Assembly: GCA_017544165.1 (NCBI GenBank) | Contig: JAFYER010000002.1 | Location: 69,228 to 133,227, forward strand | Source: Bacilli bacterium | Lineage (GTDB): Bacteria > Bacillota_I > Bacilli_A > RF39 > UBA660 | Direction: 5' to 3' | Length of the DNA: 64,000 nt | Shown: piece by piece, positions 2,644 to 51,878 of the stretch | Layout: each line of letters opens with the position of its first letter | How positions within the stretch are numbered: the first letter of the stretch is position 1 | Notes under the pieces: model-generated | What the model saw: only the letters and a program-made list of their open reading frames with translations | Databases searched by the model: none | What the model was told of the DNA's origin: nothing | Program-made: the position numbers and the translations under genes

Positions 2644-3219
2644 TTATTTTATATTTAGACTCATTAACCCTTCTTTTACATATTTTAAGCTATAATCTAT
2701 TATTTCATCGTTACTTAACTCACATAATGGTTTATCAAAGCCTATCGGATAAGAGACATTTGATAAAGGGTAAGTATTATCTTCAATAACAATATTTTCT
2801 TTTAAGGGGTGATATATTTCTGGGATATCTAAAGAAACTTCATATAGATTTTTTTCTTTATCTATAATGCAATATGCTCTATTAAAGGCAAATTGTTCCC
2901 CATCCTCAAGATAATTTCCATATAATATTATATTCAAGTGATTTTTAATATTCGGTTCAATTCTGCCTTTAATAAAAAGAGCATCATCAAGGCCCACTAT
3001 ATAATCATAATTATAATTTTTTAAATATTCGTAAGCATTTAAAGCTTTAGTTCTAGCTCTTTGAATATTAGTACCCTCTTCAGTGATTGAAGGAAGTTTT
3101 ATATCACTTGTGGGACGAATAATTTCATATTCATTTTCTGGAAATATTGTATTTTTAAATATTGTTGATACAATAGTAAATTTATCTTTATTAGTTGTTG
3201 CTATTAATACTTTCTTCAT
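2644..3219 (-). CDS. Divergent Ham1/RdgB-type non-canonical purine NTP pyrophosphatase-like protein
   Basis: About 191 residues. The start MKKVLIATTNKDKF is the characteristic Ham1/ITPase nucleotide-binding strand, followed by an RARTKA helix and a VGLDDALFI segment at the position of the family's conserved acidic strand. The family hydrolyses dITP or XTP to monophosphates and pyrophosphate to keep damaged purines out of nucleic acid. The usual DSGL motif is altered here, so activity is uncertain. The ATG at 3219 is preferred because an upstream in-frame GTG lies inside the AGGTGA ribosome-binding site. The gene converges on the deoxynucleotidase gene and is divergent from the OLE-like RNA. 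Confidence 0.65.
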   Translation of the reverse strand: MKKVLIATTNKDKFTIVSTIFKNTIFPENEYEIIRPTSDIKLPSITEEGTNIQRARTKALNAYEYLKNYNYDYIVGLDDALFIKGRIEPNIKNHLNIILYGNYLEDGEQFAFNRAYCIIDKEKNLYEVSLDIPEIYHPLKENIVIEDNTYPLSNVSYPIGFDKPLCELSNDEIIDYSLKYVKEGLMSLNIK

Positions 3220-3292
3220 AAAAATCACCTAAACTAATTTTATCACATATTGTTACTTCTTTCGAATACAATTGATAATAGCCATAAGAAAT

Positions 3293-3321
3293 TTGCATTA
3301 TTTATGAAAATATGCTATTAT
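3293..3321 (+). promoter_or_regulatory. Candidate promoter of the OLE-like RNA
   Basis: TTGCAT at 3293-3298 and TATTAT at 3316-3321 are separated by exactly 17 bp, placing a start site near 3328. The -10 box matches 5 of 6 consensus bases and the -35 box only 3 of 6. The position fits the left edge of the G+C-richer non-coding block. Confidence 0.5.
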
Positions 3322-3327
3322 TATGCG

Positions 3328-3818
3328 CGTGGTGCATTATGCTAGTCACAAACTCCATTTGAAGATGGGGCTAAAAATCCATTAATTGATATTAAGGACT
3401 TTGTATATCTGCTTTTTCGGCCCAAGTTGGGGTGGATATATAATTTTAAATGTTAGGGAAAATCATAATGGCATATGAAAAATTACCCTGATATTGATTC
3501 GAGCATTAACATAATCATGTCGTGAGTGGTTATTCGGGATTGAAAATGAAATTATAACTGCAAAAGCGAATAAGAGTGTGATCGTTTGTGTTTGAGAAAA
3601 TCTCTAGCGTGTATTTATCATAAAGTTTGAAGTGCGGACTATGTGGCAATCGAGTAATTATTAAGGCAACTGATAATTATTTCTAATAAAGGAGAAATCG
3701 CCCGAGGGCAACCAAAGGAATAGAAATAGAGAAATTCAACTCGACCAAAGCCGTAAAATTAATTTATGATAAACCATATATTTTAACTTTATAAATTTTT
3801 TTATAAAGTTTTTTTATT
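3328..3818 (+). ncRNA. ole: OLE-like large ornate RNA upstream of oapA
   Basis: A block of roughly 490-590 bases with no open reading frame and visibly more G and C than other intergenic DNA here. It contains many short pairing segments, including GCGCGTGGTGCA near the 5' end and CGCCCGAGGGCAACC near the 3' end. It sits immediately upstream of a gene I recognise as oapA, which is the defining arrangement of OLE RNAs, and its length is in the range known for that class (about 600 nt). Known OLE RNA binds the membrane protein OapA and has been linked to cold, alcohol and magnesium stress and carbon-source adaptation in alkaliphilic bacilli. The right end is set by a perfect terminator hairpin and the left end by the candidate promoter. 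The identification rests mainly on context because I could not align it to the family model. Confidence 0.75.
3785..3818 (+). terminator. Intrinsic terminator between the OLE-like RNA and oapA
   Basis: AACTTTATAA (3785-3794) pairs perfectly with TTATAAAGTT (3801-3810) across a six-base loop and is followed by TTTTTATT. It ends 15 bases before the oapA start, so most transcripts probably stop as free RNA and oapA is made by read-through. Confidence 0.7.
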
Positions 3819-3833
3819 CTATGGAGGATATTT

Positions 3834-4352
3834 ATGAAAAATAAAAAGTGGATTATTGAAGTTTTTATATGGTCATTTGTTTTAGCAATTGTTTTTAGTT
3901 ATGCCACAAATATCGTGGCGATTCATTCAAATATTATTCTGACAAGCATTTTAATAATAATCGTAATTAATGTTGGCATAATTTTTGATATGATTGGAGC
4001 GGCATCACTTACAAGTAGTGAAGCTACATTTCACGCAATGAATTCACAAAAGATTAAGGGTGCAAGTATTGCTATTAAACTTATCAAGAACAATGTTAAA
4101 GTATCAAGCATATGCAATGATATCATTGGTGATATATGTGGTATTGTAAGTGGTGGTCTTGGAGCAATGCTTGCAATATCACTACACTCTATTTCAAAGA
4201 TGGATTTAGCAATTATCACAATAATAATATCTGCGCTTATTTCATCACTGACAGTTGGTGGGAAAGCTTTATTTAAACAAGTAGCAATAAAAAATGCTGA
4301 TAAGATTATCAACATTACTTCGAGGGTTATTTATTTCTTTAAGAAAAAGTAA
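3834..4352 (+). CDS. oapA: OapA-like OLE RNA-associated membrane protein
   Basis: A 172-residue integral membrane protein with four likely transmembrane segments: about 9-30, 34-55, 100-120 and 125-145. Between segments 2 and 3 lies a conserved soluble stretch with IIFDMIGAAS, EATFHAMNSQKIKGA, AIKLIKN and CNDIIGDICGIVSG. I recognise these as OapA hallmarks; orthologues are often labelled as CorB-like magnesium/cobalt proteins. OapA binds OLE RNA at the membrane. It has a strong site (GGAGG at 3823-3827) seven bases before the ATG and lies 15 bases after the terminator of the RNA. Typical orthologues are slightly longer. The nusB-xseA-ispA type neighbours often seen around ole-oapA are absent. 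Confidence 0.82.
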   Translation: MKNKKWIIEVFIWSFVLAIVFSYATNIVAIHSNIILTSILIIIVINVGIIFDMIGAASLTSSEATFHAMNSQKIKGASIAIKLIKNNVKVSSICNDIIGDICGIVSGGLGAMLAISLHSISKMDLAIITIIISALISSLTVGGKALFKQVAIKNADKIINITSRVIYFFKKK

Positions 4353-4359
4353 TCCTTTT

Positions 4360-5367
4360 TTATTTTCTTCTAAGAAATGATACTAAATAAGCAAAGAATC
4401 CTAAAATGATGAACAAATAAAATGTAATTCCCCTTGAAAGAAGCATCGCACTCACTAAAGCTTCGCTTGAATAAAAACGGCCAAATATACTTAAATAAGC
4501 AAATTCACTAGCCCCAATAGCACCTGGTAAAGGAACCCAAGAAGCCATAGCGTACAATAAAGCCTGACTTAATATAATTGATACAAATCCAAATTCATTA
4601 AAACCAAGTGATAGATATATAAAATAAGAAACAAAATAACAACAAATTACTCCAATTAAAAATATTAGAATTGATTTTATAAATATATCTTTGTTTTCTT
4701 TAAAAAATGATGCATACTGATTATACTTATCTATTTCTGCATCTACTAATTTTTGTTTTTCTTTTGGTTCTTTAATACCAATTCGATGTAAAAAGTTAAT
4801 AATGCCATTTGTTATTTTAATCATAAAAGATGGATTAAATATACATAAAACGATTAATATAAGAGGAACTAAATAAATAATAAATCCTATACAAAAAAAT
4901 ACCCTATTTATATTTGAAAGAATGTTAAAATTTATAACAAATGCAAGTAATGCTAAAGATAAACAAGCTATTTTATAACTAAATAGTTGAACTAATACTG
5001 CTAAAGTTGCTTTTGAACCATTAATACCATCTTTGCCCATATAATAAACCTCGACAGGTTGACCACCTGTTGCTCCAGGTGTAATACCACTAAAGAAAAA
5101 GCAAAGTAAAGTATACCTAAATCCCTTAAATAATGATATTTTTTCATCCAACTTTTTTAATAAAAACTTTAAATTAATTGATTGAATAATAAAAAATAAA
5201 AACATACTAACAATTGCTAAAATAACAAAAGCTCTATTAGCGTTTTTAGTATTTTCAATTATTAAGGATAAATTATTTTTTCGCAAAACGAAATAATATG
5301 TTAAGAAAATAATTATAATAAAAAAGATACTATTTTTAAGAAATTTTTTATCTTGCTTTTTTTCCAT
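4360..5367 (-). CDS. LPG_synthase_TM / YbhN-family multi-pass membrane protein
   Basis: A 335-residue polytopic protein with seven to eight hydrophobic segments. It carries the family signature GITPGATGGQPVEVYY around residue 95 and a C-terminal WVPLPGAIGASEFAY stretch. This is the flippase-like membrane portion related to MprF and AglD, without the catalytic lysyl-transferase domain. Members are thought to move or influence membrane lipids; the substrate here is unknown. An AGGAGTAAG site precedes the ATG. It converges with oapA, leaving only seven bases between stops, and is divergent from the cortex-hydrolase gene. Confidence 0.85.
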   Translation of the reverse strand: MEKKQDKKFLKNSIFFIIIIFLTYYFVLRKNNLSLIIENTKNANRAFVILAIVSMFLFFIIQSINLKFLLKKLDEKISLFKGFRYTLLCFFFSGITPGATGGQPVEVYYMGKDGINGSKATLAVLVQLFSYKIACLSLALLAFVINFNILSNINRVFFCIGFIIYLVPLILIVLCIFNPSFMIKITNGIINFLHRIGIKEPKEKQKLVDAEIDKYNQYASFFKENKDIFIKSILIFLIGVICCYFVSYFIYLSLGFNEFGFVSIILSQALLYAMASWVPLPGAIGASEFAYLSIFGRFYSSEALVSAMLLSRGITFYLFIILGFFAYLVSFLRRK

Positions 5368-51584: not shown

Positions 51585-51878
51585 CTACTTTGATTCTTTC
51601 TTAGAAGCTGTTTTCTTTTCTGTTTTTACTTCTTTTGTCTTAGCTTCTTTTACTTTTTTGTCACCAATTACTTTGACATTTGATACATGAATAGGTGCTT
51701 CAATATCAATAATTCCGCCTTTTTCTTCAGTAGTACGAGGTTTTGAATGCTTTTTAACAATGTTTATACCTTCGACTACTACGCGGTTTTGAAGCTTCAT
51801 GGTTTTAATTACTTTGCCTTCTTTGCCTTTATCTTTTCCAGCAAGAATTTTAACATTATCTCCAACTCTAACCTTCAT
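51585..51878 (-). CDS. rplX: 50S ribosomal protein L24
   Basis: A 97-residue L24 with the KOW motif VRVGDNVKILAGKDKGKEGKVIK and the GINIVKKHSKP loop. Compared with the classical L24, the C-terminus is replaced by a Lys-rich tail (EAKTKEVKTEKKTASKK). It initiates 50S assembly. The KOW domain should not be mistaken for OapB. Confidence 0.95.
   Translation of the reverse strand: MKVRVGDNVKILAGKDKGKEGKVIKTMKLQNRVVVEGINIVKKHSKPRTTEEKGGIIDIEAPIHVSNVKVIGDKKVKEAKTKEVKTEKKTASKKESK

Follow-up and report, generated by a model that had tools for sequence, protein, structure and literature searches.

A shortened OLE RNA beside oapA in an RF39 bacterium and stepwise reduction of the RNA among its relatives

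Twenty years on, what OLE RNA does biochemically is still unsolved. Published work on H. halodurans and by cryo-EM describes OLE as an RNA that dimerises, binds OapA and resides at the membrane, that cells require when stressed by Mg2+, cold, alcohol or carbon source, and whose partner OapA resembles Mg2+ exporters (PMC11332333, PMC12265935, PMC12286853, PMC9723947). The cryo-EM structure identifies a palindromic loop in P9 as dimer bridge B3 (PMC12286853). Besides the full-length RNA of about 600 nt known from H. halodurans, Clostridium and Thermoanaerobacterium (Rfam RF01071), the text of Fernando and Breaker (2024) describes a "variant 2", common in the RF39 gut clade, which lacks P7 and P8 and occurs in reduced genomes that mostly lack OapB and OapC (PMC11332333). 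Here, we show that a stretch of 64,000 nucleotides from an RF39 Bacilli genome (contig JAFYER010000002.1; hereafter the window) carries a genuine, shortened OLE RNA beside the gene of its membrane partner OapA.

A search with the RF01071 covariance model, proposed by a first-pass annotation of the window made from the sequence alone, gave a match on the plus strand at 3313-3793 with 210.6 bits (E 8e-58), well above the gathering score of 50 bits. With 481 nt it is shorter than the model (616), yet it spans the whole of it (positions 1-616); a tRNA is the only other Rfam match in the window. This match, the protein alignment, conserved gene order, the joint occurrence of RNA and protein across genomes and covarying base pairs together confirm the identity of OLE and OapA and bear out the central proposal of that annotation, an OLE-like RNA with its OapA partner. 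The roughly 600 gene-free bases that it placed upstream of oapA indeed contain no open reading frame of at least 60 amino acids (3229-3833), and the fold of 3328-3818 has a z-score of -2.9. Its description of this DNA as unusually G+C-rich went too far, since the content of 0.28-0.335 in 200-base windows is only modestly raised and is equalled by nearby coding windows. The genes on either side (2644-3228 upstream; 4360-5367 downstream, an LPG_synthase_TM flippase) both lie on the opposite strand, and thus ole-oapA forms a unit of its own, outside the nusB-xse-ispA context of full-length OLE, as had also been noted. The frame at 1342-2040 encodes a CatA-like protein of the chloramphenicol acetyltransferase family, scoring well below the equivalog cut-offs.

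The transcript likely starts near 3328 and ends near 3818. The start is suggested by a candidate promoter at 3292-3321 (+), in which a -35 box (TTTGCA/TTGCAT, 3292-3298) and an extended -10 box, TGCTATTAT (3313-3321), are separated by a spacer of 17-18, placing the -35 element about 17 bases upstream. This promoter scores 9 of 12 with its extended -10. Among relatives, TTGACA-N16-18-TATAAT upstream of GTGGTGC reaches 11-12 of 12 in 24 of 49, and the same score was obtained by 2 of 980 shuffles. The end is suggested by a terminator-like hairpin of 11 A/U-rich base pairs with a U-run at 3787-3818 (+), just before oapA, and the predicted transcript (3328-3818, +; about 491 nt) agrees with the first-pass estimate of a shorter RNA of some 490 nt from the best promoter. 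A similar A/U-rich hairpin and U-run are found at the same-genus locus L026, and at L027 with a different stem sequence; a generic, stricter terminator scan did not pick up the hairpin at 3787-3818 because its stem has few G-C pairs.

The window RNA shares with full-length OLE the 5' motifs GUGGUGCA/CUAGUCA, the A-rich loop of P4, the P5.1/P6.1 kissing loops, the base of P9, domain 2 and the position of oapA directly downstream. P4 (3365-3382), whose A-rich loop CUAAAAAU corresponds to dimer bridge B1, is 100% paired in its helix, with two-sided changes in 4 of 5 pairs and a loop invariant in 31 relatives. Alignment, structure map and covariation of relatives place the two halves of bridge B2 in P5/P5.1 with its GCCCA loop (3404-3440) and P6/P6.1 with its AUGGCA loop (3449-3495). 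Across the 31 short RNAs compared, the P4 loop as well as the GCCCA loop of P5.1 and the GGCA loop of P6.1 are invariant or nearly so. Structure map and covariation likewise define domain 2 (3614-3773), with an 11-bp closing helix, UUUAUCAUAAA/UUUAUGAUAAA, and helices nested within it.

By contrast with full-length OLE, P7 and P8 are absent from the window RNA according to both the model alignment and the spacing between the P6.1 loop and P9, while the remaining conserved motifs are present. This distance is 48 nt in the window and 43-69 nt in other forms without P7/P8, as opposed to 84-167 nt in forms that have them, and a short unpaired joint occupies the place of the two stems (3496-3519). 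The GGAGA kink-turn strand (J6/7) is missing there, and so is its counterpart UGAAR (J4a/5), leaving no OapC kink-turn at the base of P5; the pair is present in 27 of the 29 RNAs that have P7/P8 and in 0 of the 37 that lack them. J4a/5 has not kept its ATCGAT palindrome either, which may belong to an OapA site. P9 (3520-3569) retains the base of its stem, and its distal arch with the palindromic L9.3 kissing loop of bridge B3 is missing. Among relatives, P9s of 78-85 nt carry the palindrome GGCC or AGCT at their midpoint, with one measured exception (GTAC in L017); in L013 the parser misplaced P9, and the GGCC loop is visible. Truncated P9s of 34-67 nt, including the 36-nt P9 of the window, mostly lack a palindrome, and GATC is kept in L055 and L060 (72-73 nt) and in L054 and L064 (51-57 nt).

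The oapA gene (3834-4352, +), preceded by a GGAGG ribosome-binding site at 3824-3828, encodes a membrane protein of 172 amino acids that contains both motifs quoted in the first-pass annotation. Its identity to relatives is 35-72%, and D96 and D100 of its DxxxD motif, which according to the text of PMC11332333 separates OapA from CNNM proteins, are invariant in the alignment. An AlphaFold2 model (pLDDT 88) gives four long helices, as foreseen for a four-helix membrane protein. The Pfam CNNM match of 22 bits lies below the cut-off of 28.4, 13 of 22 aligned relatives match CNNM at E <= 0.001, and a sequence search of the PDB with OapA gave no match. The best PDB structure matches of the model in Foldseek were CNNM/CorC proteins (MtCorB 7m1t and 7m1u; also 7cff and 7cfg), with weak E-values of 9e-3 at best, and the TM-score against the CNNM membrane domain of MtCorB was 0.62 by query length. 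OapA is thus predicted to adopt a CNNM-like fold resembling the membrane domain of the MpfA/CNNM-CorC magnesium transporters, from which it differs in its DxxxD motif and in having neither a CBS nor a CorC_HlyC domain. At loci found by OapA alone in named genomes (L002-L007), among them Thermoanaerobacterium saccharolyticum, OLE lies just upstream in every case, with 517 bits in Thermoanaerobacterium.

RNA and protein co-occur tightly. In a sample of 193 genomes from the window's family, OLE was detected in 129 and OapA in 130, and 127 have both, 2 OLE only, 3 OapA only and 61 neither (Fisher p ~6e-44); outside this family, OLE was found in 0 of 23 genomes belonging to the same class. Within the window's genus, 4 of 10 genomes have OLE, and it was not found in one that is 96% complete (G006). 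In OLE-negative species of this genus, the neighbouring hydrolase stands in a different context. MpfA, considered as a replacement in OLE-negative family members, had to be rejected: its CorC_HlyC domain (PF03471) was found in 0 of 193 family genomes and in 11 of 14 control genomes. The 61 genomes without OLE and OapA thus lack MpfA as well, which argues that MpfA is no simple substitute for OLE, that OLE loss is tolerated without it and that the complex is dispensable.

The known partner proteins follow the RF39 pattern in the text of PMC11332333, in which OapB and OapC are absent. The L7Ae family, to which OapC belongs (PF01248), was found in 0 of 37 family genomes, as opposed to 21 of 23 other members of the class. 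OapB was not found in the window's genome, which is 88% complete, because its only two KOW proteins are sized as L24 and NusG, namely a 97-amino-acid protein in the ribosomal operon (51585-51878 of the window, L24 by position) and a NusG-sized frame of 194 amino acids. Nor was bS21, present in most relatives, found in this genome. At that completeness, absences from the window's genome alone are weak, and the weight lies on the family-wide pattern. Full-length OLEs of the family (e.g., L008-L011) retain the kink-turn sequence for OapC despite the lack of any L7Ae-family hit in the 37 genomes, and something other than OapC may bind it.

OLE is pared down in steps among these relatives. In 128 family genomes, its length is at least 566 nt in 86, 525-565 nt in 10, 464-519 nt in 29 and at most 381 nt in 3. 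The OapA tree groups the window within a 34-row clade (support 100/98), in which 29 rows lack P7/P8 and the arch, 3 are mini forms and 2 have the arch; the sister clade consists mostly of full-length forms, and both lie within one bacterial family. Most of the window's clade resembles the window RNA in lacking the P9 arch, the kissing loop and both OapC kink-turn strands. Loss of P7/P8 and loss of the arch are separable, because L012 and L016 keep P7/P8 without the arch and kissing loop, a combination also seen in L006, a Bacillota contig.

The mini OLEs, matched by RF01071 with 134-139 bits, are 378-381 nt long (L078:2069-2446; L079:2016-2393, minus strand; L080:2063-2443). They come from three genomes in two genera and form a single clade nested inside the window's OapA clade; their exact junction pattern was found in these loci only among 386 family genomes. 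Model positions of about 74-277 are replaced by a few nucleotides, so that P5, P6, P7 and P8 are gone and P4 and domain 2 kept, and OapA starts 4-6 nt past the match. Since all of P5-P8 is dropped, bridge B2 is lost, and the P9 loop region contains TGATCA. The window type keeps B1 and B2 without B3, and the mini type has B1 together with a P9 loop that is palindromic (GATC). One may tentatively speculate, with more doubt than confidence, that reduction in this family leaves OLE with domain 2, the P4 bridge and OapA as its core and that the dimer contacts are interchangeable. The mini P9 palindrome is weak evidence alone, because its three carriers are close relatives that inherited it from a single event. 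If such trading of contacts were true, RNA dimerisation would be the selected feature, and P5-P8, OapB and OapC would be dispensable.

The first-pass suggestion of a divergent OLE class holds insofar as the window RNA is a reduced OLE form; it is not a new class, given that a form without P7/P8 was published in 2024 as variant 2. According to the text of that paper, variant 2 and the window share the lack of P7/P8, a gut-type reduced genome, retention of OapA and absence of OapB and OapC (PMC11332333). They differ in the P9 arch, whose loss in the window and most of its clade goes unmentioned in this text and may be new. The mini OLE is likewise not among the three types in that text. Beyond it, our work adds the family-scale tests and, unless the published figures already show them, the loss of arch and kink-turn as well as the mini OLE.

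The stepwise shrinkage of the RNA and the absence of OLE and OapA from about a third of the family genomes would fit a decaying remnant that has ceased to function in reduced genomes and is shedding parts for that reason. Covariation makes this reading highly improbable. With the window structure, which derives from aligning one of the 31 short RNAs to the Rfam model, 56 of 80 base pairs show changes on both sides (321 cells), and sliding the partners by 1-3 columns left only 35-62 such cells. These two-sided changes are a stronger measure than the proportion of cells that pair, 95.7%, which leans toward the structure because it was derived from one of the same sequences. Neutral decay would not yield covarying helices, loop motifs invariant across 31 species, a conserved promoter and OapA frames that, among those listed, contain no stop codons; purifying selection on both RNA and OapA is already indicated by the covariation.

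Membership in another RNA class with only a likeness to OLE, such as a leader RNA regulating oapA in cis, would account for the RNA's position immediately ahead of oapA at nearly all loci and for the terminator-like hairpin between the two in the window. However, the full-model Rfam match has the motif order of canonical OLE, forms with and without P7/P8 belong to sister clades of the OapA tree within one bacterial family, and in a few genomes (L052, L019) the RNA and OapA are about 1 kb apart, which leaves this explanation scarcely credible.

We consider it very probable that OLE RNA and OapA form a two-part membrane complex for Mg2+ and stress homeostasis, reduced along with the genome. Transcription from a promoter of its own would yield an OLE RNA of about 490 nt, ending for the most part at the A/U-rich terminator, with oapA expressed by read-through or from a separate signal. 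By analogy with H. halodurans, the conserved loops would let the RNA dimerise, and it would sit at the membrane bound to the CNNM-like OapA and adjust the traffic of divalent metal (Mg2+) as well as stress tolerance; dimerisation, membrane location and metal or stress role are here carried over from publications on other species. The core of this complex is probably RNA and OapA alone, because OapB, OapC and MpfA were undetected in the genome. A naturally reduced OLE that keeps OapA without the known partners and several stems points to the indispensable parts, and such forms provide smaller constructs for binding and structure work.

Two further observations concern OLE loci elsewhere in the family. 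A murA-like gene upstream and bL31 downstream, named by sequence reading, recur around ole-oapA in several genera (L025, L054, L058-L060, L065, L079, L080), the window's genus not among them. One genome, G033, has two different OLE genes (L084:1956-2424; L010/L085), one of them cut by a contig end; with 4% contamination in this genome, one copy may be foreign.
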